Assembly: GCF_019244115.1 (NCBI RefSeq)
Contig: NZ_JAFATE010000314.1
Span: 1 to 44,923, forward strand
Length of the DNA stretch: 44,923 nucleotides
Origin: Bradyrhizobium sp.
Lineage (GTDB): Bacteria; Pseudomonadota; Alphaproteobacteria; Rhizobiales; Xanthobacteraceae
Direction: 5' to 3'
Position numbers and translations under genes: made by a program. The notes beneath the pieces were generated by a model. That model saw only the letters and a program-made list of their open reading frames with translations. It ran no database searches and was not told the DNA's origin. Shown piece after piece: positions 509-32,962 of the stretch (its first letter is position 1; the number at the start of each line of letters is the position of its first letter).

Positions 509-2077
509 TCAGAACGACCCGTCGGGCAAATCAGTCCGTACAATCCGACAGTTCAGCCCTCCCCATCCGCTTCCGACGGCGGTTTGAAACGCCGCCCGCT
601 CCGCCGACGTCAGCGACAACCGGTGCTTTGTCCGCCGATCGAGAATATCAGCGGCGCATGTCGCCCACTCCGTGTCGCTGACATAGCTGGCCTCCCGTTC
701 ATAGAGATTCGCGCCAAAATGCCGCCCGAGATCCGCGCAGCGGCGCGCCGATCCCAACAGTTCTCGCGCACGCGTGCCGTAGAGGCGCGCATAGTGATGG
801 ACCAGATCCTGCGGCAGGGCCGCATACTCGCGCGCCAGCTCCGCCGCAAAGTCTGGAAACGACGTCATGTCGCCGCCGGGCAGCGGTTTTCCGGCGGTCC
901 AGGCCGGCTGCATGTCCGGAAACCATGGCAGGAGACGCTGCATCGCGTGCTCGGCGAGTTTTCGGTAGGTGGTGATCTTGCCGCCAAAAATCGACAGCAG
1001 CGGCGCGGTGCCTGCCGCGCCGTCGACCTCGAAGACATAATCCCGCGTCACCGCGGACGGATTTTTGGCATTGTCATCATACAGCGGCCGGACACCGGAG
1101 AAAGTGTGAACGATGTCGCGCGCCTCCGGGGCCTTTCGAAAGTAGCGGCGCAGCACGCGCAACAGATAATCGGTCTCGGCAGCGTCGATCGCGACATCCT
1201 CGGCGCGGCCGTCATAGGGAATGTCGGTGGTGCCGATCAGCGCGAGCTTGTCGCCATAGGGATTGACGAAGATGACGCGACGATCGTCGTTCTGCAGCAG
1301 ATAGGCCTGCGGCCCGTTCCAGAACTTTGGCACTACCAGATGGCTGCCCTTGACGAGGCGCACCCTGTGCCCGGAATTCAGTCCGGCAACGACAGATGCG
1401 ACGTCCTGGACCCAGGGGCCGGCTGCATTGACGAGCACGCGCGCGCGAACGACCTGCGTCGTGCCATCCGCGCCCTGCATCTCGAGCAGCCAGCCGCCGT
1501 TTGCGCGCTGCGCGCGCAAGGCGCGGGTGCGCGGCAGCACGCGCGCGCCGTTCTGGGCCGCATCGATCAGGTTGAGGATGACGAGCCGCGCATCGTCGAC
1601 CCAGCAGTCGGAATATTCGAAACCGCGGCGAAATTCAGAGCGCAGCGGCTTGCCTTCGGGGCTGCGGGTGAGATCCAGGCCGCGGCTCGGCGGGAGGCGC
1701 TTGCGGCCGCCGAGATGATCGTACAGGAACAGGCCAGCCCTTACCAGCCACGCCGGACGCTGCTCCGGCGAATGCGGCAGCACGAACCGCATCGGCCAGA
1801 TGATGTGGGGCGCGGAGGCGAGCAGGACCTCGCGCTCGATCAGCGCTTCGCGCACCAGGCGAAACTCGTAATATTCGAGATAGCGCAGACCGCCATGGAC
1901 GAGCTTGCCCGAGCGCGACGACGTGCCCTCGCCAAAGTCGTCCTTCTCGCAAATCAGAACTTTAAGGCCCCGCCCGGCCGCATCGCGCGCGATGCCGGCC
2001 CCGTTGATTCCGCCCCCGATGACGGCGATGTCGACCAGCCCGTGATCCCCGCCCGCGGCCGGTGCAGCACCATTCAT
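509..2077 (-). CDS. glpD: FAD-dependent glycerol-3-phosphate dehydrogenase family (GlpD/EryB-like)
   Basis: This 522-residue flavoprotein of the GlpD family oxidises a polyol phosphate to a keto phosphate and normally passes electrons to quinone at the inner membrane. The N-terminal FAD-binding motif IGGGINGAGIARDAAGRG is at about residues 19-36, followed by the family blocks GTSSRSGKLVHGGLRYLEY and IGTTDIPYDG and a late SIFGGKITTYRKLAEHA block. Start and upstream aldolase stop share ATGA (2074-2077), so the pair is translationally coupled. It is the last gene of the long leftward operon. Rhizobial EryB proteins (erythritol phosphate dehydrogenases) belong to the same family and look nearly identical, so with an EryA-like kinase upstream the substrate may be a C4 polyol phosphate rather than glycerol phosphate. 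The last 20 or so residues depart from the family and run towards the repeat downstream. Confidence 0.85.
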   Translation of the reverse strand: MNGAAPAAGGDHGLVDIAVIGGGINGAGIARDAAGRGLKVLICEKDDFGEGTSSRSGKLVHGGLRYLEYYEFRLVREALIEREVLLASAPHIIWPMRFVLPHSPEQRPAWLVRAGLFLYDHLGGRKRLPPSRGLDLTRSPEGKPLRSEFRRGFEYSDCWVDDARLVILNLIDAAQNGARVLPRTRALRAQRANGGWLLEMQGADGTTQVVRARVLVNAAGPWVQDVASVVAGLNSGHRVRLVKGSHLVVPKFWNGPQAYLLQNDDRRVIFVNPYGDKLALIGTTDIPYDGRAEDVAIDAAETDYLLRVLRRYFRKAPEARDIVHTFSGVRPLYDDNAKNPSAVTRDYVFEVDGAAGTAPLLSIFGGKITTYRKLAEHAMQRLLPWFPDMQPAWTAGKPLPGGDMTSFPDFAAELAREYAALPQDLVHHYARLYGTRARELLGSARRCADLGRHFGANLYEREASYVSDTEWATCAADILDRRTKHRLSLTSAERAAFQTAVGSGWGGLNCRIVRTDLPDGSF

Positions 2078-2823
2078 CGCGTCTTGCCGACCCGCTTCTC
2101 AATTCGCCGCGCGGACGCTTTCGCCGAGGCGCGCGGCTTCACGGCCGGCTTTGCCACGGCTTTGGGCTTCGGAGCCTGCAAGCCGTAGGTCGAAAATCCC
2201 CGCGCGGTCTCCGCGATCTCGTCGTCGCTGAGAATGACGGGCTCACCGAGCGCGAGCGAGAGATAGTATTGGCGCGCAATGGTCTCGAGTTCGACCGCGA
2301 GCCACATCGCCTTGTCGAGGTTGGCGCCGACCGCGATCATGCCGTGATTGGCCAACAGACAGCCATTGCGGCCTTCGAGCGCTTCCAGCGCGAGCTCGGA
2401 GAGCTCCGCGGTGCCGTAGCGTGCATAGCCCGCGCAGCGAATGTCGGTACCGCCGAACGCGGCCATCATGTAGTGGCAGGCGGGGATCGGCTTGCGCGCG
2501 ATCGCGAGCACCGTGGCATAGGTGGAATGGGTGTGCACGACGCTGCCCACGTCCGGGCGGGCGCGCATGATGTCGAGATGAAAGCGCCATTCGGTCGAGG
2601 GCTGCAATGGCCCGGACCATTCGCCATAGGAATCGTCGAGCGCCATCGCGGCGATCATCTCCGGCTTCATCGCGTCATAAGGCGTGGCCGACGGGGTGAT
2701 CAGCATGCGGTCCTTGTAGCGGGCGGAGATGTTGCCTGAGGTACCCTGGTTGAGACCCGAGTCGTTCATCCATCGGCATTTTGCGATGATCGCCTCGCGC
2801 AGCTTTCGTTCCTCACCGGTCAT
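2074..2823 (-). CDS. Class II aldolase (L-fuculose-phosphate aldolase family)
   Basis: A 249-residue zinc-dependent aldolase of the class II aldolase/adducin fold. It would cleave a ketose 1-phosphate into dihydroxyacetone phosphate and an aldehyde. The glycine-rich phosphate loop NQGTSGNIS is at 25-33, the likely acid Glu78 lies in PSTEW, and the zinc ligands are His97 and His99 (HTHS) and His160 (NHG). About 35 residues after the fold ends are Lys/Ala/Arg-rich (PKPKAVAKPAVKPRAS onward), an extension not usual in FucA. A weak purine-rich ribosome site precedes the ATG. It follows the hydroxyacid dehydrogenase gene with a short gap and overlaps the dehydrogenase gene by 4 bp. The family is clear; the substrate is not. 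Confidence 0.85.
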   Translation of the reverse strand: MTGEERKLREAIIAKCRWMNDSGLNQGTSGNISARYKDRMLITPSATPYDAMKPEMIAAMALDDSYGEWSGPLQPSTEWRFHLDIMRARPDVGSVVHTHSTYATVLAIARKPIPACHYMMAAFGGTDIRCAGYARYGTAELSELALEALEGRNGCLLANHGMIAVGANLDKAMWLAVELETIARQYYLSLALGEPVILSDDEIAETARGFSTYGLQAPKPKAVAKPAVKPRASAKASARRIEKRVGKTR

Positions 2824-2841
2824 AAGCGAAACCTTTCGTCC

Positions 2842-3933
2842 TCAGCAGGGGTTGAGCGGCGGCTCGCCGGCCAGAAAGCGGCGAACCTCCTCGGCCGCCT
2901 GCTCGGCGGCAACAGTGACGGTGCGCACCGAGGCGCCGGCAATGTGCGGCGTCAGTGTGACATTGGGCAGTTGCAGGATCGGCCAGTCCGGCGGCGCCGG
3001 CTCGACGGCATAGGTGTCGAGCATCGCGCCGGCCAGCCGGCCCGAAACCAGCGCGTCATGCAGTGCCTCGTAATCCACCAGCGGCCCGCGCGCGGTATTG
3101 ATGAGGATCGCGCCGTCCTTGACCCGCGCCAGCGCATCACGACCGATGAATCCCGTTGTCTCCAGCGTGACCCGCGCATGCAGGCTGATCACGTCGGCAC
3201 GCGCCAGCAATTCATTCAACGCAACATGCTCGACGCCATCATGACGGTCTTGCGCGCTGAGCTGGACATAGGGATCGGTCACCAGGATCCTGCAGCCAAA
3301 GGCCTTGAGCAGTCTTGTCACCCGGCTGCCGATCGCGCCATAACCGACGATCCCGACCGTCATCTCGGACAGCTCGCGCCCGGTGCGGTCGGCACGATAG
3401 AGATCGCCGCGCCATTCGCCTGATCGCAACGCCTCGTGGCCGCTGCGGATCAGGCGCGTTTCGGCGAGAATCGCCCCGATGGTGAATTCGGCGACCGCGC
3501 TCGCATTGCGGCCGGGCGTGTTGACCACCAGCACGTTGTGATCGCGCGCCGCCTTGAGGTCGATATTGACCGGGCCGCCGCGCGAGACCGCGATGAATTT
3601 CAGCTTGGGAAGCCGTTCCAGCATGGCCCGCGAGATCGGCGCAAGATGCGTGACGAGCAGCGCCGCATCGCCGATGAAGGCCGCGACCTCGTCCGGCTGT
3701 CCCATATATTCCTTCAGGCCATCGAGCGGGGAGCCGGCATAACCGTGCTCCATCGGCTCGTCCGGCCAGGGCTGCTCGAGCGTTTTGATGCTGATGCCGT
3801 TGCCGCACGCCGCGGCAATTTGCTCGGCGAAGACCGACGGCAGCATGAAACGATCGCCGATGACGGCAATGGCGTTGGTATTGGAATGAGACAGCGTCGA
3901 ATCGGGCATCGCGTGAGGCTTTGTACTAGACAT
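2842..3933 (-). CDS. D-isomer-specific 2-hydroxyacid dehydrogenase
   Basis: A 363-residue NAD(P)-dependent oxidoreductase of the D-2-hydroxyacid dehydrogenase (PGDH/glyoxylate reductase) family, interconverting a 2-hydroxyacid and a 2-oxoacid. The Rossmann motif VGYGAIGSRV lies mid-protein, followed by catalytic Arg in NTARGPLVDYEAL, Glu in AVEPAPP and His in TPHIAG. I chose the ATG at 3933 because GGGGGA precedes it at good distance and it overlaps the kinase stop by 8 bp, typical of coupling; an internal ATG at 3909 is the alternative. The reading frame stays open further upstream but that would lie inside the kinase gene. In this operon it could process the acid or aldehyde arm produced by the aldolase (inference). 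Confidence 0.85.
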   Translation of the reverse strand: MSSTKPHAMPDSTLSHSNTNAIAVIGDRFMLPSVFAEQIAAACGNGISIKTLEQPWPDEPMEHGYAGSPLDGLKEYMGQPDEVAAFIGDAALLVTHLAPISRAMLERLPKLKFIAVSRGGPVNIDLKAARDHNVLVVNTPGRNASAVAEFTIGAILAETRLIRSGHEALRSGEWRGDLYRADRTGRELSEMTVGIVGYGAIGSRVTRLLKAFGCRILVTDPYVQLSAQDRHDGVEHVALNELLARADVISLHARVTLETTGFIGRDALARVKDGAILINTARGPLVDYEALHDALVSGRLAGAMLDTYAVEPAPPDWPILQLPNVTLTPHIAGASVRTVTVAAEQAAEEVRRFLAGEPPLNPC

Positions 3934-5500
3934 GGGCGTCCCCCGCGCGCAAGGCGGCGAGCTGCTTCCAGACCGGCCGGGAGCCGAGCCGCGCATCGAG
4001 GTAGACCGGAAACAGTTTTGCGTAGCGCGCAGCCAGGACCGGATCGGGCGCCTGCGGCGTACTGAGATGCGGGCTCACCCAGTCTTCTGCGCAGGCTGCC
4101 ATGTCGGCGTAGCAGCCGGTGGCGACAGCCGCGATCATCGCCGCTCCCGCGGCACCGGCCTCGGCGCGACTGCAGATCCGAATGTTGCAGTCGAGCGTGG
4201 CCGCAAGGATCGTGCCGAGCGCCCGGCTGCGCGCCGCGCCGCCGGTGATCCTGATATCGCGCGGCAGCGTTCCCATGGCGGCGTAACAATCGCGCGCCGC
4301 GAATGCCAGTCCCTCGATGACAGCGCGCATCAGGTCCCAGTAGCGGTGGCGGGAGCGCAGGCCGAAAAATTGCGCGCAGGCCTCATGCGCGACGAACGGG
4401 CCGCGCTCGCCGGCATCCGAGATGAAGGGATGAAACAGCAGTTCGCCCGGCTCGGCCTGCAGCACGCGTTCGTCGAGCCGTTTGAGGAGATCGCCGCGCG
4501 CGCGCGTCACGCCTTCGGCGGCCAGCACGTCCAAAGCAAGATCGAGCAGCCAGTCGATGTTCAGCGTCGCCGCCATGTTGGATTGCATCTGCGCATAATG
4601 GCCGGGCACCGGGAACGGCATGGTGTAGCCGGTCGCCTCGCTGTTCAATGTCACTGCGTCCGCATTGGCGGCGAGCCGCATATGCATGCCGGTCGAGCCG
4701 ACGATGGTGCAGCCGATATCGGGCGCGGTATCGTAGAGGCCGGCGCCCAGCGCATTGCAGATCACGTCGACATAGCCGAGCGACACCGGCACGCCGGCGG
4801 GCAGGCCAGTCTCCGCCGCGGCCGCATCGGTCAGCCGATGCGTGGTGGCGACGCCGTCGACCACTTTGGGAAAAAGCCTCATCAGATCGGAGATGCCGAT
4901 GAGACCAGCGGTCTCCTCATCAAAACCGCGCTTGCGAAACTTGCCACACGTGAAGGTGGCTTCCGACGGATCGGTGGCGCGCTCGCCGGTGAGCAGGAAG
5001 TAGAGCCAGTCCTTGCAATGAAAGGCGGTGCGCGCCCGCGACAGCACATCCGGCTCGTGGGCCTTGAACCACGCCAATTGGGCGCCCTGCTGGCACGCAT
5101 TGAGGCCGGAGCCAGTGCGGCGATAGAGTTTTGCGTTACGCTCGCTGGACCTGATCTCGTCCACCAGTTTTGCCGCGCGCGAATCGAGCCACAGCAGCGC
5201 CGGCGCGACCGGCCGCCCGTCGTCGTCGATCAGCCAGGTGCCGTCGCCCTGCCCGGTGACCGCGATGGCCGCCAGGCGCGTGCCGAGATCGGGGACGACG
5301 GAGGCAAGTCCCCTGACCGCGGCGACCGTATCGGTCCAGGTCCGCGCCATCTCCTGCTCGACCCGGCCGCCTGCGGCGATGCGATAGCTGTTCGGCAGCG
5401 CGAATTCGCCGAGCTGCCCGCCGTCACGCGCGAACGCCACGGTCTTGATCATCGAGGTGCCGGCATCGATGCCGACGATCAGGTCGCGGCTTTGCGTCAT
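3926..5500 (-). CDS. eryA: FGGY-family carbohydrate kinase, erythritol kinase (EryA)-like
   Basis: A 524-residue sugar/polyol kinase with both FGGY domains. The N-terminal ATPase-fold motif GIDAGTSMIKTVAF is near residue 10, AVTGQGDGTWLIDDDGRP near 80, and the C-terminal block ITGGAARSRALGTILAATL near 420. Several blocks (HCKDWLYFLLTGERATDPSE, NMAATLNIDWLL, ISDAGERGPFV, ATRDCYAAMG-like ARDCYAAMG) match what I remember of Brucella and Rhizobium EryA, which phosphorylates erythritol. Length also fits. It overlaps the upstream ATPase gene by ATGA (5497-5500). Together with the GlpD/EryB-like protein it gives a kinase-dehydrogenase pair as in erythritol catabolism, but the eryC and isomerase genes of that pathway are not nearby. 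Another C4-C5 polyol substrate is possible. Confidence 0.75.
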   Translation of the reverse strand: MTQSRDLIVGIDAGTSMIKTVAFARDGGQLGEFALPNSYRIAAGGRVEQEMARTWTDTVAAVRGLASVVPDLGTRLAAIAVTGQGDGTWLIDDDGRPVAPALLWLDSRAAKLVDEIRSSERNAKLYRRTGSGLNACQQGAQLAWFKAHEPDVLSRARTAFHCKDWLYFLLTGERATDPSEATFTCGKFRKRGFDEETAGLIGISDLMRLFPKVVDGVATTHRLTDAAAAETGLPAGVPVSLGYVDVICNALGAGLYDTAPDIGCTIVGSTGMHMRLAANADAVTLNSEATGYTMPFPVPGHYAQMQSNMAATLNIDWLLDLALDVLAAEGVTRARGDLLKRLDERVLQAEPGELLFHPFISDAGERGPFVAHEACAQFFGLRSRHRYWDLMRAVIEGLAFAARDCYAAMGTLPRDIRITGGAARSRALGTILAATLDCNIRICSRAEAGAAGAAMIAAVATGCYADMAACAEDWVSPHLSTPQAPDPVLAARYAKLFPVYLDARLGSRPVWKQLAALRAGDAHV

Positions 5501-6624
5501 CGTGCCGCCGCCTCCGCATGGTGAATGCAGGTGCCGTCGGCGGCGAAAATGTGGATGTGACGCGGCTCGATCGCAAACGGCACGAGCTCACCCGGCCGCG
5601 CCGCGACGCGGCCCGGCGTGACGGCAATCACGAGATGGCCGCAGAGTTCGCCGGCGATATGCGACTGGTCGCCGAGCCATTGATTGGAGGCAACGCGCAC
5701 GCGTGCCTCGCCCGATCCGACCGCGATCTTCTGTGGCCGGATGCCGATGCGCAGCGACGGCGCCGTCTCCAGCGTTTTTCGCGCGACGGCGTCGAGCGCG
5801 TCGCCCTCGATCTGGAGGGCCACGTCGCGGCCGACCGACAGGCGGAAGCCGCCATCGGTGCGGCTGACATCCGCCTCCAGCAGGTTCATCGGCGGCTCGC
5901 CGATGAAGCTGGCGACGAACAGGTTTGCGGGCCGGTCCTTCAATTCCTTCTCGCTGGCGAACTGCTGCAGCACGCCGTCCTCCATGACCGCGATGCGATC
6001 CGCCAGCGCGCTCGCTTCGGTCTGGTCGTGGGTGACGAAGATCGCCGTCATTTCCCGCTCGGCAAGGAGGCTTTTGATTCGACCGCGCAGCACCGCGCGA
6101 AGCTGCGGCTCGAGCTGCCCCATCGGCTCGTCGAGCAGATAGAGATCGGCGTCGCGCACCAGCGCGCGTGCCAGCGACACCCGCTGCTGCTGACCGCCCG
6201 AGATCGAGCGCGGATAGCTGTCCAGAATGTCCTCGATCTCGACCAAGTGCGCGATCGTGTCGACGCGCCGCGACATCTCCGCGCGCGACAGCTGCCGGGA
6301 TTTCAGCGCAAACGCGATGTTCTCGCGCACCGTAAGCGGCGGATAGAGCGAGTAGCCTTCAAAAGCCATCGCGACCTTGCGCCGGGCCGGCGGCAGCTCG
6401 TGGATGCGCCGTCCCTGCAGCGTGATCGATCCGGCCGTCACGCTCTCAAAACCCGCGATCATGCGCAAGGTCGAGGTCTTGCCGCAGCCGGATGAGCCCA
6501 AGAGTGCGACGATCTCGCCCTTGCCGATCTCCATGTCGAGAGATCGCACGGCGTGAACCGGCGTCTTGCTGCGGCTCGCATAGACCTTGTCAACGCTGCG
6601 AAGCTCGAGTATGCCCATGGCCAT
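5497..6624 (-). CDS. ABC transporter ATP-binding protein (CUT1/MalK-like), consensus-site subunit
   Basis: A 375-residue cytoplasmic ATPase for the polyol/sugar importer. Walker A GSSGCGKT is at 43-50, signature ISGGQ at 141-145, Walker B LYLLDEP with Glu166, switch His199 (VTHD), then a C-terminal TOBE/MalK-type regulatory region. Two positions are unusual: the Q-loop has Glu89 (MAFEGYSLYP) instead of Gln, and the D-loop reads GQLEP instead of the usual SNLDA. I chose the ATG at 6624 because GGAG lies 5 nt upstream; the frame is open further upstream inside the preceding gene. It starts 10 bp after the other ATPase gene ends. A pair of different ATPases matches the rhizobial glycerol importer GlpSTPQV layout. 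Confidence 0.88.
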   Translation of the reverse strand: MAMGILELRSVDKVYASRSKTPVHAVRSLDMEIGKGEIVALLGSSGCGKTSTLRMIAGFESVTAGSITLQGRRIHELPPARRKVAMAFEGYSLYPPLTVRENIAFALKSRQLSRAEMSRRVDTIAHLVEIEDILDSYPRSISGGQQQRVSLARALVRDADLYLLDEPMGQLEPQLRAVLRGRIKSLLAEREMTAIFVTHDQTEASALADRIAVMEDGVLQQFASEKELKDRPANLFVASFIGEPPMNLLEADVSRTDGGFRLSVGRDVALQIEGDALDAVARKTLETAPSLRIGIRPQKIAVGSGEARVRVASNQWLGDQSHIAGELCGHLVIAVTPGRVAARPGELVPFAIEPRHIHIFAADGTCIHHAEAAAR

Positions 6625-6634
6625 CACTGCTCCA

Positions 6635-7732
6635 TCATGCGGCCTGTCGCCGGTGCGACAGTTCGATGCGGCGTCCGCTCGCGCGGTCGAACAACAGCGC
6701 CGCCTCCGGCGTGAAGCGGACAAAGACTGACGCGTCGGACGCCGTGTAAGGTGCGTCAGGCGGCAGGGCCGCGAGCCATTCCGTTCCATCGGCCAGGCGA
6801 AGCAACAGCACGGCCTTTTCGTGGATCGGCGTGACCGCGAGGATGCGCGCCGGGACGGCGTCGTCAGCAGCCGATAACGAGATCATCAGATCTTCAGGCC
6901 GCACGCCGAGCCAGCAGGCCGCTGTCGGCGGCTCCGCGCCAGCCGGGCCGAGATGCACGCGGGCGCCAGAGATCGCGGCCGAGAGCGCGCCATGCTCGGC
7001 GAGCGGCGTCACCTCGACGAGATTGATGGAGGGATCGCCAAACAGCCGCGCGACGGCGACGGAGGCGGGTCTCGCATAAATGTCCTCGGGAGGCGCGACC
7101 TGCTCGAGGTGGCCGTCGATCAGCACGGCGATGCGATCGGCGATCGCCATCGCCTCGCGATAATCCTGGGTCACATAGAGCACCGATGAAGAACCGCGCC
7201 GCAGCAGGTTCGGCAGTTCGAGCCGCATTTCATAGCGCAGCTTGGCGTCGACATTGCGCAGGGGATCGTCCAGCAGCAGCACGTCCGGGCTGCCGATCAG
7301 CGCACGCGCCAGCGCGGTGCGCTGCTTCTGCCCGTTCGACAATTCACGCGGCATGTGACCCAGCACATGCTCGATCTTGAGCAATCGGCTGATCGCCTGC
7401 ACGCGGGCCGCCACCTCGGCGGCTTTGCCGCGCAGTCCGCTCGCGATGTTCTGGCGGGCCGACATGTGCGGAAACAGCGCAAAATTCTGGAACGCCATGC
7501 CGATGCCGCGCCGCTCGGGCGGCGCGCCGACCATCGAACGGCCGCCGATGAGAATTTCGCCTTCGTCGGGCTCGAACATGCCCGCGATCATGCGCAGCAG
7601 CACCGTCTTGCCACTGCCGGACGGTCCGAACACGGCGACGATCTCGCCGGGCTCGACGGCGAGCGACAGACGATCGGCCGGCAGTGTCGTGCCAAACGCC
7701 TTGCTGACGGATTTGAGCTCGAGCCGTGACAT
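6635..7732 (-). CDS. ABC transporter ATP-binding protein (CUT1/MalK-like), degenerate-site subunit
   Basis: A 365-residue ATPase, partner of the one downstream. Walker A GPSGSGKT is at 36-43, Q-loop Gln82 (FQNFALFPH), signature LSNGQ at 131-135 (usually LSGGQ). Walker B reads VLLLDDP, so the catalytic Glu is Asp156, and the switch His is Gln188 (YVTQDYREAM). Loss of both catalytic Glu and His suggests that its own Walker site binds ATP but hydrolyses poorly, while its signature motif completes the active site of the partner. A TOBE-like C-terminal region follows. It sits 3 bp after the permease gene, so it is clearly in the operon. Confidence 0.88.
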   Translation of the reverse strand: MSRLELKSVSKAFGTTLPADRLSLAVEPGEIVAVFGPSGSGKTVLLRMIAGMFEPDEGEILIGGRSMVGAPPERRGIGMAFQNFALFPHMSARQNIASGLRGKAAEVAARVQAISRLLKIEHVLGHMPRELSNGQKQRTALARALIGSPDVLLLDDPLRNVDAKLRYEMRLELPNLLRRGSSSVLYVTQDYREAMAIADRIAVLIDGHLEQVAPPEDIYARPASVAVARLFGDPSINLVEVTPLAEHGALSAAISGARVHLGPAGAEPPTAACWLGVRPEDLMISLSAADDAVPARILAVTPIHEKAVLLLRLADGTEWLAALPPDAPYTASDASVFVRFTPEAALLFDRASGRRIELSHRRQAA

Positions 7733-7735
7733 TCC

Positions 7736-8593
7736 CTAGCCTTTCACCGCGCCGAGCGACAGCCCCTCGACCAGGTAGCGCTGCGCATAAAGCGCGAGCA
7801 GCAGGGTCGGCGTCACCGAGAGCACGATCGCCGCGGCGATCTGCCCGTATTGGATTCCCGAAGCCGTGACGAAGGCGAGCGCGCCGACCGTCACCGGCTG
7901 CTTGTCTGCGGAGGCGAGGATCAGCGCGAAGACAAAATTGTTCCAGCAGAAAATGAACGACAACAGGCCGGCCGCGGCAATGCCGGGCCCGGCGAGCGGC
8001 ACCGCGATGCGCGTAAAAGCCTCGCGCCAGGAATGGCCCGCGAGACGGTAGGCATGCTCGATATCGGGGCTGATGTCCTCAAAGTAGCCGCGCACGATCC
8101 AGAGGATCAACGGCAGTGCAATGAGCTGATAGACCCAGACGATGCCGAAATAGGTGTCGTTGAGGCCGATGTCCTGATAGTACAGCGACAGCGGCAGCAG
8201 CACGAGCAACGGCGGCGCGAAGCGGAACGAGAGCAGCGTGAAGGCGATGGTTTCGCCGAGCTTGAACTTGAATCGTGCGAAGGCATAGGCCGCCGGCACG
8301 CCGAGCAGCAGCGCCAGCACGACAGCGGCGCTCGACAGCGCAAAGCTGTTCCACAGATTGTGCACGAAGGAAATTTCGAGATTGCCCGCGGTCGTCCGCA
8401 ACTGGCCGGAGATCAGCGCCGCGTAATTGCCAAGCGTCGGTTCGAACACGAGGCGGGGCGGGATCCGCAAAATCTGCTCGTTGGTCTGGAACGACATCAG
8501 AAAGATCCAGACGATCGGAAACATGAAGAACACGAGGACGAGCGCAAGGGCGATGCCTCGGAAGATGCGTCCGGCGAGACTGGAATGTTCCAT
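7736..8593 (-). CDS. ABC transporter permease (CUT1, MalG-type)
   Basis: A 285-residue inner-membrane permease with about six hydrophobic segments, the first at about 12-32 (GIALALVLVFFMFPIVWIFL). The cytoplasmic EAA loop that docks to the ATPases is visible near residue 190-205 as HAYRLAGHSWREAFTRI, with the conserved Gly. The N-terminal segment followed by the SFQTNEQIL periplasmic stretch is typical of MalG-like partners. It lies 16 bp downstream of the other permease gene and 3 bp upstream of an ATPase gene. It is one half of the translocation pore for the substrate delivered by the binding protein at 9649-11088. Confidence 0.88.
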   Translation of the reverse strand: MEHSSLAGRIFRGIALALVLVFFMFPIVWIFLMSFQTNEQILRIPPRLVFEPTLGNYAALISGQLRTTAGNLEISFVHNLWNSFALSSAAVVLALLLGVPAAYAFARFKFKLGETIAFTLLSFRFAPPLLVLLPLSLYYQDIGLNDTYFGIVWVYQLIALPLILWIVRGYFEDISPDIEHAYRLAGHSWREAFTRIAVPLAGPGIAAAGLLSFIFCWNNFVFALILASADKQPVTVGALAFVTASGIQYGQIAAAIVLSVTPTLLLALYAQRYLVEGLSLGAVKG

Positions 8594-8609
8594 GGCCAGC
8601 GCTCCATCC

Positions 8610-9542
8610 TCAGGCCTGGCCGTGTGCGCGTGCGCGCAATCGCAGCCAGTTCCTGATGAAGATGTTCGAGAGGATATTGGTGATGAGCCAGAGGATCATC
8701 AGAAGTGCGGCCGAACGCCCGACATTCGTATACTGGAAGAATTCGAGATAGGCCTGCACCTGGAACACCATCAACCGGTCGCCGGGCCCGCCCTGGGTCA
8801 TCGCATAGATGATGTCGAACTGCTGGATCGAGTCCAGCAGGCGGAACAGCGAAGCGGTGATGATGTAGGGCGCCAGCATCGGCAGCGTGATGCGGAAGAA
8901 CACGAAACTGGCCGGCACGCCGTCGAGCGCGGCCGCCTCGAACGGCTGGCGCGGCAGCGAGCGCAGGCCGGCGAGCAGCAGGATCATGATGAAGGGCGTG
9001 TAGACCCAGATGTCGACCAGCACCACCGTGAACAGCGCGCTCGACGGATCAGAGGCCCATTTGAAGTCGGTGACGCCGAACAGACTGACGAGATAAGAGA
9101 GAATGCCAAAGCCCGGATTGGTCATCAGCTTCCACATCAAGGCCGCGATGGCGGGCGCGGTCATCAGCGGCAGCAGCAGCACGATCGAGACCGCGTTGTG
9201 GAAGCGCGTCGGACGCCGTAGCAGGAGTGCGATGCCAAGCCCGAGCAGGAGCTCGAGAATCACGGTCAAGGCAGTGTAGACGAGCGAGATGCGCAGCGTG
9301 TTCCAGAACGCCGGATCCGACAGAAAGTCGATATAGTTGTCGACCCCGATGAAGCCGCGAAGGTACGGCAAATTGAGCCGGTAGCGCTGCAGGGAATAGG
9401 CCGCCGCGGTCACGAACGGCACCAGGATCGCGATGCAGACCAGCAACGCCGGCAGGCTGAGCAGATAAGGCAGCCAGCGACCGCGTGGCCGCGCCTTGCG
9501 GCCGGTCAGCGGGCTGGTGTGAAGAAGCTGAAGTATGCTCAT
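8610..9542 (-). CDS. ABC transporter permease (CUT1, MalF-type)
   Basis: A 310-residue inner-membrane permease that pairs with the downstream one. Six hydrophobic segments are seen, the first at about 24-46 (LPYLLSLPALLVCIAILVPF). The EAA loop is near residue 205-225 (FEAAALDGVPASFVFFRITL). The frame continues upstream of 9542, but I start at the ATG of MSILQLLH because GGTCAGGG lies just before it, and because the upstream part reads as a low-quality Arg-rich peptide through an intergenic hairpin. A gap of 106 bp separates it from the binding-protein gene. Confidence 0.87.
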   Translation of the reverse strand: MSILQLLHTSPLTGRKARPRGRWLPYLLSLPALLVCIAILVPFVTAAAYSLQRYRLNLPYLRGFIGVDNYIDFLSDPAFWNTLRISLVYTALTVILELLLGLGIALLLRRPTRFHNAVSIVLLLPLMTAPAIAALMWKLMTNPGFGILSYLVSLFGVTDFKWASDPSSALFTVVLVDIWVYTPFIMILLLAGLRSLPRQPFEAAALDGVPASFVFFRITLPMLAPYIITASLFRLLDSIQQFDIIYAMTQGGPGDRLMVFQVQAYLEFFQYTNVGRSAALLMILWLITNILSNIFIRNWLRLRARAHGQA

Positions 9543-9572
9543 CCCTGACCATTGATCGCGTTGCGAGGCACA

Positions 9573-9609
9573 CCGCCGGCCCGGACGGGGCCAACTTCCG
9601 AACCGGCGG
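9573..9609 (-). promoter_or_regulatory. Stem-loop between binding-protein and permease genes
   Basis: A perfect 7-bp GC stem (CCGCCGG at 9573-9579, CCGGCGG at 9603-9609) with a 23-nt loop that can itself fold (CCCGGACGGGG). There is no T-run. Stem-loops in this position of ABC operons commonly protect the abundant binding-protein mRNA or attenuate downstream genes; that role is inferred from position only. Confidence 0.4.
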
Positions 9610-9648
9610 GCTGTCATGGTGCGGGAGGAACGGGCACCATGCAAGACA

Positions 9649-11088
9649 TCAGCCGAGACCAGCCTGCTTGAGCTGGCGGTTGATGCTGTCGGCGAGCTTG
9701 TCGAGCCCTTCGTCGACGCTGACCTCCTTGGCGACCATCTTCTGCAGCGAGGCCGCCCATTCGGTGGTCAGATCGAAGAACAGCGGCTGCGCGGTAAAAT
9801 AGATCTTTGCGCCGGGCGCCGAGACGTCGTGCTGCTCGAGATAGCCCGGATAGGACTTTGCGATGCGGTCGCGGAACTCGCTGTCCTTCCAGACCGAGGC
9901 ACGCACCGGATTGACAAAATCCATCTTGCGGGCGCCGAACAGGTCATGCTCGGTCGAAGCCGCCCATTGCATGAAGGTCCAGGCCGCATCCTTCTGCTTG
10001 GAGAAGCTCGACATCGCCAGCGACCAGATCCAGACATTCGGCGTCGGCGCCTTGGCGGCCGGATTGGCCGCGAAGGCGGCATAGCCGAGATGGCCCTTCT
10101 CCTTGTTGTCGCCCCCGTTCATGAAGTAGCCGAGAATGTCGGCATCGAAGATCATGCCGGAGGCGCCGGCGCCGAGATCGGTGCCGACCTGGTACCAGGT
10201 GTAGGTCGACCAGTTCTTTGGTCCCGACTGCTGGATCATCCTGACCCATTTCTCGTGGAAATCCTTCGAGGCCTTGGTGTTCATGGCGGCCTTCAGCTTG
10301 CCGCCCTCCATCACAAAATCCTTTTGGCCGAAATTCGAATAGGCCGACAGGAAGCCCGGATGGATGGTCGCCCATGAGCGCGAGCCGCGCACGCCGACAC
10401 CATAGGGCCCGCCGGCATCCTTGGTGATCTTGGCCGCGACCTCGATCATCTCGTCGAGATTTTGCGGCGGCTTGACGCCGACCTTCTCGAAGATGGTGCG
10501 GTTGTAGGTGATGTTGTTGAGCTCATACCCCCAGGGAATGCACCATTGCTTGGCCTTGCCGGAGCCGAGCTCGGAGCCGGCGACGCCGTCCCACGCCGTC
10601 GAGGCGCGCAGGCCCGGCAGCACGTCATCCCAGGCGAAGGCCGGATTGGTTTTCGCGCCATCCTTGATGTAGGTGTTGAGGTCCTCGATCCACCCGGCGG
10701 GGCCGTAGGTCCAGGTCATGTACGCGCCGGTCATGAACGCGTCGTATTGGTCCGATTTCGACGACAGCGCCGCGGTGACCTTGTCGAAATAGACGTCCTC
10801 CGGGAAGATGTCGTAGGAGACGTTCATTCCGGTCAGCGCCTTGAAGGCGTCGAGGTCGCCGATCATCGCATCGACGTAAGGGTGCTTGTTCAGCAGCAGC
10901 TTGATCGACTTGCCGCTCTGGCCCTTCCAGTTGAAATCCGCCGCCATCGCCCGCGACACCGAGGCTGCGAAGGCGGCATTGGCGGCGAGCCCGGCGATGC
11001 CGAGTTTGGCGGCGCCGTCCAAGAGATCGCGCCGGCTGATGCGCTTCTTGGCGTAGGAGTCGAACAGATTCTTCTCACGATCGAACAT
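9649..11088 (-). CDS. Extracellular solute-binding protein, Tat-exported (CUT1 family)
   Basis: A 479-residue periplasmic binding protein (SBP family 1) that captures the substrate for the importer. The N-terminus has about 15 charged residues and then a twin-arginine signal, KKRISRRDLLDGAAKLGIAG, a hydrophobic stretch and a likely cleavage after AAFA or SRAMA, so export as a folded protein is expected. The mature protein begins near ADFNWKGQSGK and has the usual alternating motifs of the family (YDIFPEDVYFDKV, MTWTYGPAGWIEDLN). It is longer than typical 410-440 residue sugar-binding proteins. It follows the regulator by 25 bp. Presence of a Tat signal and of two ATPases recalls the rhizobial glycerol/polyol importers; the ligand is unknown. 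Confidence 0.88.
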   Translation of the reverse strand: MFDREKNLFDSYAKKRISRRDLLDGAAKLGIAGLAANAAFAASVSRAMAADFNWKGQSGKSIKLLLNKHPYVDAMIGDLDAFKALTGMNVSYDIFPEDVYFDKVTAALSSKSDQYDAFMTGAYMTWTYGPAGWIEDLNTYIKDGAKTNPAFAWDDVLPGLRASTAWDGVAGSELGSGKAKQWCIPWGYELNNITYNRTIFEKVGVKPPQNLDEMIEVAAKITKDAGGPYGVGVRGSRSWATIHPGFLSAYSNFGQKDFVMEGGKLKAAMNTKASKDFHEKWVRMIQQSGPKNWSTYTWYQVGTDLGAGASGMIFDADILGYFMNGGDNKEKGHLGYAAFAANPAAKAPTPNVWIWSLAMSSFSKQKDAAWTFMQWAASTEHDLFGARKMDFVNPVRASVWKDSEFRDRIAKSYPGYLEQHDVSAPGAKIYFTAQPLFFDLTTEWAASLQKMVAKEVSVDEGLDKLADSINRQLKQAGLG

Positions 11089-11113
11089 TCAATCCTCTCC
11101 CTGGTTACACGTT

Positions 11114-12124
11114 TCACTTCCGACCCTTGGTTCTTCTCGTGCCGGATGTCGCCTCCGGCTTGTCACTGGCGAGCGCCTGAGCGGTCGCCTCGTCGGTGAT
11201 GAGCCCGTGCAGCATGCCGCTGCGCAGCACCGCCCGCAGCGCGGTCAGCTTGGGCAGGCCGCCCGCGATCGCCACGATGCGGTGCTTTCGCAGGTCATCC
11301 GCGCTCATGGACGTGGCCCGCGCCGACAGATCGATGTCGAGCACGCGGCCGTCCTCGTGAAAAAAATGCCCGAGCAGATCGGCGCAGGCGCCGACCCGCT
11401 TCAATTCGACGACCTCCTCCGGCTTGATCATGCCGCTGGAGACGAGAAAGCCGTCGCGGCTGATCTGGCCGATGCCGACGAACAGCAGCGAGGCCTGGCG
11501 CGCCAACGCGAAGACGTCGGCTATGCCGTATTGCTTCATCAGCACGGCGCGATCGGCGACGGAATTGGCGAATACCGGCACCGGCAGCAGATAGGCCTCG
11601 GCGCCGGTGCGTTCGGACAGGCGATGGATCACGTCGAACGGATTGGCCGCAAACTTTCGCGTCAACCCGCCGAGCAGCGAGACGAACTGCACCTCGCGCG
11701 CCGGCGTCCGCGGCAACTGCTCGATCACGGCGGCGAGCGTACGGCCATGGCCGACGCCAATGACCTTGTCGTCGCCGCGTTCGAGAATCTGGCGCAAGAA
11801 ACTTGCGCCTTCGAGCGCCAGCGCTTTTAGCGGCAGGTCGCCCTCGCCAAGGTCGGGCGCGACGCGACAGAACGCAAGCCCGAGGCGCTGGGCCAGCGTG
11901 TTTTCCAGCGCGACGCATTCCGCCACCGGTCCTTCGACGAAGACGCGGATCATGCCCTCGCGGCTGGCCCGCGCGATCAGGCGGTGCGCCTTGGTGCTCT
12001 GGATGTTCAGCCGTTCGGCGACTTCCGACTGCGTCAGCCCGGCGGCGAAATAGAGCCAGGCCGCGCGCGTCGCCAGTGACGCATCGTCGTCGATGATCGG
12101 CAGCCTGTCGGAAGACCCAGCCAT
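11114..12124 (-). CDS. SorC/DeoR-like sugar-binding transcriptional regulator (EryD-like)
   Basis: A 336-residue regulator of the SorC family. Residues about 15-55 form a helix-turn-helix (RAAWLYFAAGLTQSEVAERL then IQSTKAHRLIARA), and the rest is the phosphosugar-binding domain with VIGVGHGRTLAAVIEQLP and the closing VAIAGGLPKLTALRAVLRSG, which in the family precedes a final helix. Family members respond to phosphorylated sugars made by the operon kinase. EryD, the erythritol regulator, belongs to this family. I start at the ATG at 12124 (MAGSSDRLP); a start at 12145 would overlap the operator. As first gene of the leftward operon it probably represses itself, the operon and perhaps the divergent one. 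The C-terminus is short and basic (TSGTRRTKGRK). Confidence 0.85.
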   Translation of the reverse strand: MAGSSDRLPIIDDDASLATRAAWLYFAAGLTQSEVAERLNIQSTKAHRLIARASREGMIRVFVEGPVAECVALENTLAQRLGLAFCRVAPDLGEGDLPLKALALEGASFLRQILERGDDKVIGVGHGRTLAAVIEQLPRTPAREVQFVSLLGGLTRKFAANPFDVIHRLSERTGAEAYLLPVPVFANSVADRAVLMKQYGIADVFALARQASLLFVGIGQISRDGFLVSSGMIKPEEVVELKRVGACADLLGHFFHEDGRVLDIDLSARATSMSADDLRKHRIVAIAGGLPKLTALRAVLRSGMLHGLITDEATAQALASDKPEATSGTRRTKGRK

Positions 12125-12139
12125 GCTGAAAACGACCGC

Positions 12140-12174
12140 TTGCAAAATTCTTCACGTCTTGCAAAAAATTGCAA
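12140..12174. promoter_or_regulatory. Three TTGCAA sites, probable SorC-regulator operator
   Basis: Three copies of the self-complementary hexamer TTGCAA start at 12140, 12159 and 12169, so they are 19 and 10 bp apart, about two and one helical turns. Each copy is followed by A-rich sequence (TTGCAAAA). They lie 16-50 bp upstream of the regulator start and 109 bp or more upstream of the divergent kinase start, the only spacer shared by both operons. Face-of-helix phasing fits binding of a tetrameric regulator of the SorC type. A GCCGGTC/GACCGGC hairpin at 12232-12255 lies in the leader of the rightward operon. Confidence 0.6.
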
Positions 12175-12282
12175 AAGCAGCTCCGTGCGTCAAGCCCCTG
12201 ATCATGCTGCGGCGCAACGGTGGTGGCGGCTGCCGGTCGGTGGCACCTGACCGGCTGACCGCAAAGGGCGTAGTGAAGTCGA

Positions 12283-13563
12283 ATGGCAGACCTGTTCCTC
12301 GGCATCGATATCGGCACCGGCGGCGTCCGCGCCTGTGCGATCGATGCACGCGCCGAGATCCAGGGCACGGCTGCGGCGTCCCTGCCGCCGCCGCGGCAGC
12401 AGGGCGATGCGATCGACCAGGAGCCGGAGCTTTGGTGGCAGGCGATGGTGACTGCGATCGGCAAGCTCGGCCAGGCCGTCGATCTCGGCCGCGTCACGCG
12501 CATTTCGGTCGACGGCACGTCCGGCACCTTGCTGCTGATCGATGCGGAGGGCCGGCCGCGTTCGCCTGGGTTGATGTACAACGACGCGCGCTCCGTCGCG
12601 GAGGCAGCCCGCATCGCCAAAATCGTGCCGGCGGAGAGCGGCGCGCATGGCCGCAGCAGCGCGCTGGCAAAACTGCTGCATTTGCTGGACCAGGCCGAGG
12701 CCACCGATCTCCGCCACGCCGTGCACCAAGCTGACTGGATCGCCGGCCGCCTCGCCGCTCTGCACGGCATCAGCGACGAGAACAATGCCTTGAAGCTCGG
12801 CTATGATCCGGTGACCCGCAGATGGCCGGCCTGGCTCGATCACGTCGGCGTGCCGCGCGCGCTGCTGCCAAAGGTGCTGGTGCCGGGGACATCGCTGGCG
12901 ACAATCGATCCGGCCGTCGCGCGATCATTGGGTCTGCCGCCTTCGGCCGAGATCGCGGCCGGCACCACCGACGGCGTCGCCTCCTTCCTCGCAACCGGCG
13001 CAGATCAGCCGGGCGATGCCGTCACTTCGCTCGGCACCACGCTGGTCCTCAAGCAGCTCGCAACCCAGCCCATCTTTGCCGCCGACCAGGGCGTCTACTC
13101 GCACCGCCTCGGCGAGCGCTGGCTCGCGGGCGGCGCCTCCAACACCGGCGGCGCGGCGCTGCTCGCGCATTTCACCGCAGATGAGATGGACCGCCTCACT
13201 CCACAGCTCACACCGGCGGAGCCCACCGGGCTCGACTACTATCCGCTGCCAAAGCCCGGCGAGCGTTTTCCGATCGCCGATCCTTATCTCGCGGCGCGGA
13301 TCACGCCGCGCCCCGCCGAACCGGTTCGCTTTTTTCAGGGCCTGCTCGAGGGCATCGCTGCGGTCGAGGCGCTCGCCTATCAGCGCCTGGCGCTACTCGG
13401 CGCGCACCCCCTGCGCCGCGTCATCAGCATCGGCCGCGGCGCGAAGAATGCACCATGGACGGACATCCGCCGCCGCACGCTCGGCGTTCCCGTCACGACA
13501 GCAGAACAGACGGAGGCCAGTTACGGCGCCGCGCTGCTTGCGCTTCATGGCAGCCCGCCATGA
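12283..13563 (+). CDS. FGGY-family carbohydrate kinase, D-ribulose/xylulose kinase-like
   Basis: A 426-residue kinase, first gene of the divergent operon. The N-terminal nucleotide motif FLGIDIGTGGVRACAID is at about 5-21; RISVDGTSGTLLLIDAEGRP is near 75-95; the likely catalytic base is the Asp in AAGTTDGVASFLATG near residue 230; the C-terminal adenosine motif reads ISIGRGAKNAPWTDIRRR. At 426 residues it is clearly shorter than the EryA-like kinase and resembles the cyanobacterial/plant D-ribulokinase (XK-1) group, by my recollection. Its stop overlaps the start of the HAD gene as ATGA. It could phosphorylate a ketose made or released by the pathway. Substrate uncertain. Confidence 0.8.
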   Translation: MADLFLGIDIGTGGVRACAIDARAEIQGTAAASLPPPRQQGDAIDQEPELWWQAMVTAIGKLGQAVDLGRVTRISVDGTSGTLLLIDAEGRPRSPGLMYNDARSVAEAARIAKIVPAESGAHGRSSALAKLLHLLDQAEATDLRHAVHQADWIAGRLAALHGISDENNALKLGYDPVTRRWPAWLDHVGVPRALLPKVLVPGTSLATIDPAVARSLGLPPSAEIAAGTTDGVASFLATGADQPGDAVTSLGTTLVLKQLATQPIFAADQGVYSHRLGERWLAGGASNTGGAALLAHFTADEMDRLTPQLTPAEPTGLDYYPLPKPGERFPIADPYLAARITPRPAEPVRFFQGLLEGIAAVEALAYQRLALLGAHPLRRVISIGRGAKNAPWTDIRRRTLGVPVTTAEQTEASYGAALLALHGSPP

Positions 13564-14429
13564 CGGAAGGTCCCGTCGCCATCGCCGGGCTTGGCGCCAT
13601 CGCCGACCGTTTCGATCACGTCCTGCTCGACCAATGGGGCACCCTGCACGAGGGCCGCGCGATCGCGCCCGCCGCCTATAGCTGCGTGATGAAGCTTCGC
13701 GACGCGGGCAAGCGCGTGCTGGCGCTGTCCAATTCCGGCAAGCGCGCCGAGGCCAATCAGCGCCGTCTCGCCGCGCTCGGCCTGCCAGCGGAGAGCTATG
13801 AGGGCGTGCTGTCGTCCGGCGAGGTGACGTGGAACGGACTGCGCGCGCGCGATCGCGCGCCGTTCAAGGACCTCGGCCAGGCCTGCTTTTTGATCACGCG
13901 CGACAATGACCGCTCCATCGTCGCCGGACTCGGCCTCAGCCTGGTCGACGATCTCAAACAGGCCGACTTCATCCTGCTCGGCGGGCTCGATGACGCGGCC
14001 GCAGAGCCGGAACAGTGGCGGCGCCGCCTGAGCACGGCGGCGATGCACGACGTCCCGATGCTGTGCGCCAATCCGGACCTCGTGATGTTCGGTGCCGGAG
14101 GACTGATCCCGGCGCCGGGCGCCTTGGCGGCCTTCTATCAATCGCTCGGGGGCAAGGTGAGATTCGTCGGCAAGCCGCATGCCCCGATCTTCGAAGCGGC
14201 GCTGGCGCGGCTCGGCCAGCCGGACCCTAGCCGCGTCCTCGTGGTCGGCGATTCGCTCGATCACGACGTCGCCGGCGGACGCGCGGCGGGCATGCTGACG
14301 GCGCTGATCCGCTCCGGTGTCCACCGGGCGGCGCTGGCGGACGCCGCCGATCTGCCACAGGCGATCCTTAAACTCGCCGGCTCCGAAGCGCGCACGCCGC
14401 ATTGGACACTGCAACATCTGGCCTGGTGA
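13560..14429 (+). CDS. HAD superfamily IIA hydrolase (TIGR01459-like)
   Basis: A 289-residue HAD protein of the NagD-like class IIA group. Motif I is VLLDQWGTLHEG with nucleophile Asp24; motif II is LALSNSGKR; motif III Lys is in VGKPHAPIF; motif IV is VVGDSLDHDVAGG. The second acid of the usual DxD motif is Trp here (DQW), which I associate with the TIGR01459 subgroup and which raises the question of how strongly it acts as a phosphatase. The frame is open back to 13455, but the ATG at 13560 overlaps the kinase stop and is the natural start. Probably removes phosphate from a sugar phosphate of the pathway, as repair or bypass (inference). Confidence 0.82.
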   Translation: MTEGPVAIAGLGAIADRFDHVLLDQWGTLHEGRAIAPAAYSCVMKLRDAGKRVLALSNSGKRAEANQRRLAALGLPAESYEGVLSSGEVTWNGLRARDRAPFKDLGQACFLITRDNDRSIVAGLGLSLVDDLKQADFILLGGLDDAAAEPEQWRRRLSTAAMHDVPMLCANPDLVMFGAGGLIPAPGALAAFYQSLGGKVRFVGKPHAPIFEAALARLGQPDPSRVLVVGDSLDHDVAGGRAAGMLTALIRSGVHRAALADAADLPQAILKLAGSEARTPHWTLQHLAW

Positions 14430-14438
14430 CACCACGCA

Positions 14439-15467
14439 ATGCAGAAACCCGCTGGTATCGACGAACTCCGCCGCATGTCCGCGCGCGTCGGCAGCAACAT
14501 CCTGCTGACGCAGGCCGCCGGCGGCAATTCCTCCATCAAGCAGGACGACGTGCTCTGGGTCAAAGCCTCCGGCATGTGGCTGGCCGATGCCGAGGACAAG
14601 GAGGTCTTCGTGCCGATTTCGCTCTCCGGTGCCCGCGCCGCACTTGCCGAGGACGACGAGCGCATGCCGCTCGCACCGGGCCACCACAGCCCGCTTCGCG
14701 GATCCATCGAGACCTCGCTGCATGCGCTGATGCCGCATCCGGTCGTGCTGCACGTCCATTCCGTGAATACGATTGCATGGTCGGTGCGAACCGACGCGGC
14801 CGACAAGCTGGCCGCGCGCCTTCATGGCCTCGCCTGGCAAAGGCTCGACTATCACCACCCCGGCCTGCCGCTTGCACGCGCCGTGAGCGAAAGCCTGGCG
14901 CGGCGGCCCGCCGACGTGCTGATCCTGGGCAATCATGGCCTCGTCGTCGGCGCGCAAACCTGCGAGGCCGCGGAGGCGCTCGTCCTGGAGGTCGAGCGCC
15001 GCCTTGCGCTGCCACCGCGCAGCGCTGCGCTTGCCGACACGACCGCGCTCGCGGAGATCTGCGATGGCACGGCGTATAGCCCCGTGGCGGACCAGATCAG
15101 CCACCAGCTTGCGACCGACCGTCACAACCTTCGCCTCGTCACGTCAGGCTCGCTCTATCCGGACCACGTCATTTTCCTCGGCCCCGCCTTGCCCGCACTT
15201 GTGGGCGGCGAAACCCTGACGGCGAGACTCGCACACACCGCGAGGGCCGGTTTGCCCGCGCCGATCGCCATGCTGATCCCCGGCAAGGGCATCGTCATCC
15301 GCAACGACGCCAATGCGGCCGCGCAGGCGATGCTGAGCTGCCTCGTGCTGGTTGCGAGCCGCCTGCCGTTGCGGGCACAGATCAAATACCTGCCCGCAAA
15401 GGCCGAGCAGGCCCTGCTCAACTGGGACGCCGAGCGTTACCGTCAACAGATGACGGCAAGTCGCTGA
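14439..15467 (+). CDS. Class II aldolase, RhaD-type N-terminal domain only
   Basis: A 342-residue class II aldolase. TQAAGGNSSIK near residues 24-34 is the phosphate loop; Glu91 (SIETS) and His105/His107 (LHVHS) with His166 (GNHG) form the metal site. The pattern, including the long second half from about 210 to 330, matches the aldolase part of the bifunctional rhamnulose-1-phosphate aldolase/short-chain dehydrogenase proteins of rhizobia, which are about 700 residues; the dehydrogenase domain is absent. It begins 9 bp after the HAD gene. Two class II aldolases of different subtype in one locus suggests two cleavage steps or two substrates. Confidence 0.82.
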   Translation: MQKPAGIDELRRMSARVGSNILLTQAAGGNSSIKQDDVLWVKASGMWLADAEDKEVFVPISLSGARAALAEDDERMPLAPGHHSPLRGSIETSLHALMPHPVVLHVHSVNTIAWSVRTDAADKLAARLHGLAWQRLDYHHPGLPLARAVSESLARRPADVLILGNHGLVVGAQTCEAAEALVLEVERRLALPPRSAALADTTALAEICDGTAYSPVADQISHQLATDRHNLRLVTSGSLYPDHVIFLGPALPALVGGETLTARLAHTARAGLPAPIAMLIPGKGIVIRNDANAAAQAMLSCLVLVASRLPLRAQIKYLPAKAEQALLNWDAERYRQQMTASR

Positions 15468-15483
15468 GAACAGATTGGGATTT

Positions 15484-29969: not shown

Positions 29970-29975
29970 GTCCTG

Positions 29976-32950: not shown

Positions 32951-32962
32951 GACGACCTCCGA

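Follow-up and report, generated by a model that had tools for sequence, protein, structure and literature searches.

A probable ribitol and L-arabitol locus in a Bradyrhizobium genome, related to the S. meliloti polyol locus and devoid of eryC

The S. meliloti erythritol, adonitol and L-arabitol locus (strain Ak57, CP090106.1) comprises 17 genes, and published S. meliloti genetics assign erythritol, adonitol and L-arabitol to the MptABCDE transporter and the EryA kinase and pentitols only to lalA-rbtABC. The erythritol locus of R. leguminosarum (now R. johnstonii) 3841 plasmid pRL12 and of Brucella is organized as eryABCDR-tpiB-rpiB, with an EryEFG transporter, EryC, TpiB and RpiB, and contains no rbtA, fucA, lalA, rbtB or rbtC. 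A Bradyrhizobium type, found in strains BTAi1 and ORS278, carries eryABD, mptABCDE, lalA and rbtABC and lacks EryC, EryR and TpiB, according to Geddes, Hausner and Oresnik (2013, PMC3599248).

We analyzed a 44,923-nucleotide stretch of Bradyrhizobium sp. DNA (contig NZ_JAFATE010000314.1, hereafter the window), in which a module of 13 genes occupies positions 509-15467. All the genes named beforehand by a sequence-only reading are found there. The minus strand encodes, in order, an eryB-like gene, a fucA-like gene, a 2-hydroxyacid dehydrogenase, an eryA-like gene, a five-gene ABC importer and a SorC regulator, and the divergent plus-strand set encodes a ribulokinase, a HAD protein and a class II aldolase. 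All 13 genes have counterparts in the S. meliloti locus, which additionally has eryC, eryR, tpiB and rpiB and in which lalA-rbtB-rbtC come after eryB in its orientation; in the window they are divergent. Relative to R. leguminosarum and Brucella, EryA, EryB and EryD are orthologous, but the eryC-tpiB-rpiB isomerases and the EryEFG transporter that characterize an erythritol locus are absent from the window locus. Compared with the published description of the BTAi1/ORS278 type of the same genus, the window locus revealed no difference in gene content.

These similarities make it probable that the module is a Bradyrhizobium-type pentitol locus, for adonitol (ribitol) and L-arabitol, and an eryC-less relative of the S. 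meliloti locus; this assessment covers locus identity and substrate class, the order of chemical steps being rated separately below. The gene neighborhood comparison that the sequence-only reading had called for revealed that gene order and orientation are kept in Bradyrhizobium and gene content in other Alphaproteobacteria, so the grouping did not arise by chance. The module is a polyol locus of a known kind, already described in root-nodule bacteria, and in itself ordinary. The earlier statement that no known operon matches it was mistaken, as it corresponds to the type described by Geddes et al. (PMC3599248), and the supposed novel pathway falls away.

The eryB ortholog (509-2077, minus strand) encodes an FAD-dependent polyol-phosphate dehydrogenase of the GlpD family (NF009906, 798 bits), with 66% identity to its counterpart at the eryB position in R. 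johnstonii 3841 and 64% to the one in S. meliloti; the genome's other full-length GlpD shares 55%. The eryA ortholog (3926-5500, minus strand), an FGGY polyol kinase identified by its identity to eryA-position genes, shares 50% identity with that of R. johnstonii 3841 and 56% with that of S. meliloti, versus 31% with the other FGGY kinase of pRL12. The EryA-like kinase and GlpD/EryB-like dehydrogenase proposed from sequence are borne out by this orthology. A kinase at positions 3-1538 of another locus (L142) was first taken as EryA and was dropped, as the pRL12 eryA position holds a kinase of the window type. Threitol, considered as a substrate because the core adjoins dhaK, tpiB and rpiB in Mesorhizobium, was dropped upon identification of the locus.

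The importer is of the MptABCDE type, not EryEFG, with all five subunits syntenic. Its minus-strand genes encode two ATP-binding subunits (5497-6624, with PF00005 and TOBE domains and 56% identity to the S. meliloti protein; 6635-7732, assigned from its sequence, 51%), two permeases, likewise assigned from sequence (7736-8593, 68-84% in two pieces; 8610-9542, 74%), and the SBP_bac_1 polyol-binding protein MptA (9649-11088, PF01547), which is 70% identical to its S. meliloti counterpart, against a published cut-off of 56%, and has as nearest PDB entry 4rya, a sorbitol-type ABC binding protein. The eryD ortholog (11114 to about 12124, minus strand; PF04198), a SorC-family regulator whose reading frame opens at 12145 with an in-frame ATG at 12124 as the likelier start, is 53% identical to the R. 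johnstonii eryD-position gene product and 58% to the S. meliloti one. Between the divergent operons, a conserved footprint (12140-12175, assigned to neither strand) contains the palindrome TGCAAAAAATTGCA (12160-12173), a candidate EryD operator. Its bases reach 95% conservation or more across 26 genomes, and no other site in the window matches it with two mismatches or fewer (0.04 expected). This conservation suggests that EryD may control both operons. The two operons previously recognized act as a single conserved divergent module that shares the palindrome.

On the plus strand, rbtB (12283-13563) encodes an FGGY kinase of the SePSK/AtXK-1 D-ribulokinase type, which scores 346 bits to 5htn over residues 5-423, in agreement with the ribulokinase-like kinase predicted earlier. 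RbtB matches SePSK over its full length and retains the equivalents of SePSK D8, T11 and D221 as D9, T12 and D230; the kinase closest to it has been shown to be active on D-ribulose (PMC4880283). Both kinases of the locus keep their catalytic residues. The predicted HAD protein is encoded by rbtC (13560-14429, plus strand; HAD-IIA, NagD-like, TIGR01459 at 187 bits, above cut-off). In all 39 loci, RbtC motif I reads DQWG or DQFG (Y once) where phosphatases usually have DxD; the missing second Asp weakens the case for a phosphatase step, and the nucleophile Asp, the Lys and the motif IV Asp are retained. RbtB is 51% identical to the S. meliloti protein and RbtC 44-48%, in two pieces.

The gene at the rbtA position (2842 to about 3933, minus strand, with an open reading frame reaching 3996) encodes the anticipated 2-hydroxyacid dehydrogenase (D-2-hydroxyacid dehydrogenase family, PF02826/PF00389), 67% identical to its S. 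meliloti counterpart. Arg286, Glu315 and His334, numbered from a start at 3945, are invariant in 76 loci. Two loci (L104 and L151) carry eryA and rbtA without a nearby eryB. One Paracoccus plasmid locus has eryA-, rbtA- and fucA-like genes without eryB, and ltnD lies about 12 kb downstream.

Two class II aldolases of different subtypes, FucA-like and RhaD-like as claimed beforehand, complete the module. The fucA1 ortholog (2074-2823, minus strand), which has E. coli FucA as best PDB match (1e-57), is 65% identical to the S. meliloti protein, and its E78, H97, H99, Y118 and H160 are invariant across 38 loci. LalA (14439-15467, plus strand) resembles the aldolase half of bifunctional RhaD, RhaD-aldolase/SDR profiles matching best, is 43% identical to the S. 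meliloti protein and has invariant E91, H105, H107 and H166 across 52 loci. Both enzymes retain the aldolase Glu and the metal-binding His residues. LalA was also considered as a C4 epimerase, a role made less likely than that of an aldolase by the invariant Glu at the aldolase position.

We assigned the LalA and RbtA/B/C names to positions from the order and number of the genes and by elimination. Measured against the identity cut-offs of Geddes et al. 2013 (EryA 46%, EryB 65%, EryD 44%, MptA 56%, RbtA 50%, RbtB 51%, RbtC 40% and LalA 49%), LalA (43%) falls short, EryB (64% to S. meliloti) narrowly misses and RbtB (51%) exactly equals its threshold, so the orthology of these three rests on synteny plus identity.

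The window-type kinase occurs in 30 of the 149 sampled Bradyrhizobium genomes, and in these carriers the module is intact wherever the contig permits, with one rearranged copy. No eryC or isomerase gene is present within 509-15467, as the sequence-only reading had stated. EryC is absent from all 30 carrier genomes, in searches with working positive controls; the one TPI present has just 33-38% identity to TpiB, and EryR is absent from the locus, to which its search was confined.

In the scheme that we tentatively favor, with somewhat less than even confidence in the order of its steps, the MptABCDE-type importer would take up ribitol and L-arabitol, EryA would phosphorylate a terminal carbon and EryB would oxidize the adjacent one, so that ribitol would give D-ribulose-1-phosphate and L-arabitol would give L-xylulose-1-phosphate. 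RbtC would then strip the phosphate and RbtB re-add it at C5 to form D-ribulose-5-phosphate, while LalA would either feed L-arabitol into this branch or cleave L-xylulose-1-phosphate. The FucA-type aldolase could provide a side branch or an alternative by splitting D-ribulose-1-phosphate into DHAP and glycolaldehyde and/or D-erythrulose-1-phosphate into DHAP and formaldehyde. The pentulose-1-phosphates would most likely reach central metabolism through the ribulokinase/HAD pair or through retro-aldol cleavage. The sequence-only reading had named a well-known pentitol used by a standard route as counter-evidence, and this half applies: the pentitols are known ones, and their published route is worked out in part.

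Oxidation followed by retro-aldol cleavage in place of isomerization is chemically plausible as judged from the encoded enzymes, because both aldolases keep their catalytic residues and E. coli FucA and RhaD produce 3R ketose-1-phosphates (PMC10733421). Taken further, two stereocomplementary aldolases could serve pentitol breakdown, the FucA-type enzyme acting on D-ribulose-1-phosphate (3R,4R, from ribitol) and the RhaD-type LalA on L-xylulose-1-phosphate (3R,4S, from L-arabitol), both yielding DHAP and glycolaldehyde, with the ribulokinase/HAD pair as a salvage side branch. The respective FucA-like and RhaD-like best matches, the conserved aldolase Glu in both enzymes, the FucA family membership of a haloarchaeal ribulose-1-phosphate aldolase (PMC9700705) and the description of lalA as an L-arabitol catabolic gene agree with this arrangement. 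We nevertheless consider it doubtful, as Geddes et al. (PMC3599248) report that S. meliloti can do without fucA when growing on erythritol, adonitol or L-arabitol, the reported pentitol genes are rbtABC and lalA, and no glycolaldehyde-processing enzyme is evident within the locus. Direct cleavage of EryB products by the FucA-type aldolase, and by LalA of the RhaD type, in bacteria without EryC-TpiB-RpiB, including that of D-erythrulose-1-phosphate to DHAP and formaldehyde, appears unlikely.

An EryC-independent tetritol route, in which erythritol, once taken up, is phosphorylated and oxidized to D-erythrulose-1-phosphate and FucA-type cleavage to DHAP and formaldehyde replaces EryC-TpiB-RpiB, is more improbable still. 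Nearly all full-core loci carry either the fucA-like gene or eryC but not both (33 with the former only, 30 with the latter only, 3 with both and 3 with neither), and E. coli FucA and RhaD form D-erythrulose-1-phosphate, the isomer used by EryC, from DHAP and formaldehyde in vivo (PMC10733421); however, this anticorrelation is largely a Bradyrhizobium versus Mesorhizobium split and hence represents few independent events. The dispensability of fucA also argues against it, albeit in S. meliloti, which has eryC, as do the assignment of eryC-less loci to pentitols by Geddes et al. (PMC3599248) and the absent or weak erythritol use in one set of Bradyrhizobium type strains, which may or may not carry the locus (PMC8375429). 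An alcohol dehydrogenase at 19042-20217, which might be linked to formaldehyde, has no conserved place next to the module. The sugar-acid catabolism proposed earlier, for which the presence of the 2-hydroxyacid dehydrogenase was the one piece of support, would have this enzyme act on a phosphorylated aldonate in a new sugar-acid or mixed pathway. Its Arg-Glu-His triad, typical of acid-specific enzymes and kept in the 76 loci, and the eryB-less Paracoccus arrangement with ltnD fit such a role, yet the remaining parts have orthologs in a characterized polyol locus, where the transporter and the kinase both work on polyols, making this the least credible reading.

Our survey widens the record of this locus type to about a fifth of the sampled Bradyrhizobium and to Denitrobaculum, Pelagibius and uncultured Kiloniellaceae. 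The point left for test is how the EryB product is handled in eryC-less loci, where a FucA-type aldolase is present and the isomerases are missing. If direct cleavage were true, nature would be running the engineered erythrulose monophosphate route backwards, and polyol catabolism would have a retro-aldol branch.

The gene content listed by the sequence-only reading is borne out. The minus-strand operon (509–12124) begins with a SorC-family regulator, followed by an ABC importer made up of a binding protein, whose nearest solved relatives bind polyols and sugars, a pair of permeases and a pair of ATPases. An FGGY kinase and a D-2-hydroxyacid dehydrogenase come next, and a FucA-type class II aldolase precedes the final gene, for a GlpD-type dehydrogenase. 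The divergent plus-strand operon (12283–15467) starts with another FGGY kinase, continues with a HAD-IIA protein and ends with the other class II aldolase, which is akin to the aldolase portion of bifunctional RhaD. Motif I of the HAD-IIA protein (13629–13640) reads DQWG in the window and lacks its second aspartate in 39 of 39 loci, which may make an ordinary phosphatase role doubtful.

The locus of Sinorhizobium meliloti Ak57, completed with unannotated genes supplied by tblastn, follows the order regulator, five transporter genes, kinase, 2-hydroxyacid dehydrogenase, FucA-type aldolase and GlpD, and continues with class II aldolase, FGGY kinase, HAD, eryC, eryR, tpiB and rpiB. Its 17 genes equal the number stated for S. 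meliloti by Geddes, Hausner and Oresnik (PMC3599248), who name eryABCD, eryR, tpiB, rpiB, mptABCDE, fucA1, rbtA and a lalA-rbtB-rbtC suboperon. Matched to these names by position and elimination, the genes of the window would correspond to eryB, fucA1, rbtA, eryA, five mpt genes and eryD, with rbtB, rbtC and lalA divergently transcribed.

The window kinase is 50% identical to the product of the gene that heads the eryA-eryB-eryC-eryD-eryR-tpiB-rpiB array of Rhizobium johnstonii 3841 plasmid pRL12 (names assigned from the published order), divergent from which lies a DUF2291/ATPase/permease/binding-protein set fitting eryEFG. The other FGGY kinase–GlpD pair of pRL12 is only 31–32% identical to the window proteins. 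Loci L142 and L140 (Mesorhizobium, Rhizobiales) and L148 (6565–9883) likewise carry two kinase–GlpD-type pairs per erythritol locus, the second being 30–34% identical to that of the window. A tree of ten GlpD-family proteins is poorly resolved; judged by path length, the protein of the window sits closer to EryB proteins than to the other GlpD of its own genome.

The claim that this combination matches no known erythritol, ribitol or glycerol operon is refuted, as the same locus type was described in the same genus in 2013. The paper of Geddes et al. places Bradyrhizobium BTAi1 and ORS278, Acidiphilium and Verminephrobacter in a third category, with EryABD, Mpt, LalA and RbtABC present and EryC, EryR and TpiB missing, and treats lalA-rbtB-rbtC as the key component of Bradyrhizobium-type loci (PMC3599248). 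We detected no EryC in 30 of 30 carrier genomes with a query that was positive in three control records. In every carrier there is just one match to triose-phosphate isomerase, 33–38% identical to TpiB, and we take it to be the ordinary enzyme. What remains is a modest possibility, that aldolases replace the isomerases.

The module is conserved as a unit. The kinase was found in 30 of the 149 same-genus genomes searched, including that of the window, and the named-collection relatives belong to Bradyrhizobium. Inspected relatives keep all 13 genes, their order and their orientation, barring contig ends and L067, a locus whose two operons share one strand. The full 13-gene set occurs in 30 loci, including those of Denitrobaculum, Pelagibius and uncultured Kiloniellaceae; there, too, the second set shares the strand of the first. 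In L066 (genome G078), eryA, mptA and rbtB each match in separate pieces, which suggests frameshifts or assembly errors in a draft genome.

A dispersed repeat (106–533) overlaps the 3′ end of eryB and extends just past it, and nearly all 40 scored matches in this genome are copies of it, at 76–94% identity on many contigs. Immediately past lalA, a minus-strand gene (16196–18331) encodes a penicillin-binding protein with transglycosylase and transpeptidase domains; it is not kept beside the module in relatives. Two minus-strand PF04185 phosphoesterases of the phospholipase C-type family (20904–22829 and 24761–26848) flank a TPR-sulfotransferase gene near type II secretion genes (28348–38706) and are possibly secreted substrates.

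In the gap between the divergent operons, TGCAAAAAATTGCA and the adjoining CTTGCAAAaTTCTTCA are nearly unchanged across 26 Bradyrhizobium genomes (footprint 12140–12175). The palindrome (12160–12173) occurs once in the window versus 0.04 expected, and in other genera the regulator gene is preceded by similar A/T-rich elements, such as TGAAAAATTTTGCA. This conservation supports a candidate operator through which the SorC regulator would control both operons.

Full-core loci seldom carry both the FucA-type gene and eryC, or lack both (FucA-type only, 33; eryC only, 30; both, 3; neither, 3). The split is compatible with a FucA-type aldolase standing in for the isomerases or with mere lineage history: it runs mostly between Bradyrhizobium and Mesorhizobium, so its Fisher value, which ignores relatedness, is not readable as a probability. 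RbtA is present in nearly all loci that are not purely erythritol-type, in two cases without a neighboring eryB. These are L151 (Paracoccus seriniphilus plasmid, 13989–17254), with eryA- and rbtA-like genes and fucA beside sulfatase and tripartite transporter genes, and L104 (434–6000), with eryA- and rbtA-like genes and lalA-rbtB-rbtC; both possibly serve a different pathway.

Others have shown in S. meliloti that MptABCDE transports erythritol, adonitol and L-arabitol, that EryA acts on all three and that lalA-rbtABC serves pentitols only. D-erythrulose-1-phosphate is the substrate epimerized by EryC (PMC10733421), implying that EryB yields a 3R ketose-1-phosphate; from established stereochemistry, the same geometry would convert ribitol to D-ribulose-1-phosphate and L-arabitol to L-xylulose-1-phosphate. 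The closest relative of RbtB is SePSK, whose ATPase activity rises strongly with D-ribulose (PMC4880283), suggesting D-ribulose as an intermediate: RbtC would take the phosphate off and RbtB would put it back at C5. The RbtC step is uncertain, since its motif I is DQWG or DQFG and not DxDG. The FucA step is a proposal that no genetic result so far demands. In S. meliloti, fucA is reported to be dispensable for erythritol, adonitol and L-arabitol (PMC3599248). FucA chemistry would suit D-ribulose-1-phosphate and RhaD chemistry L-xylulose-1-phosphate, which would account for the two aldolases of different subtype.
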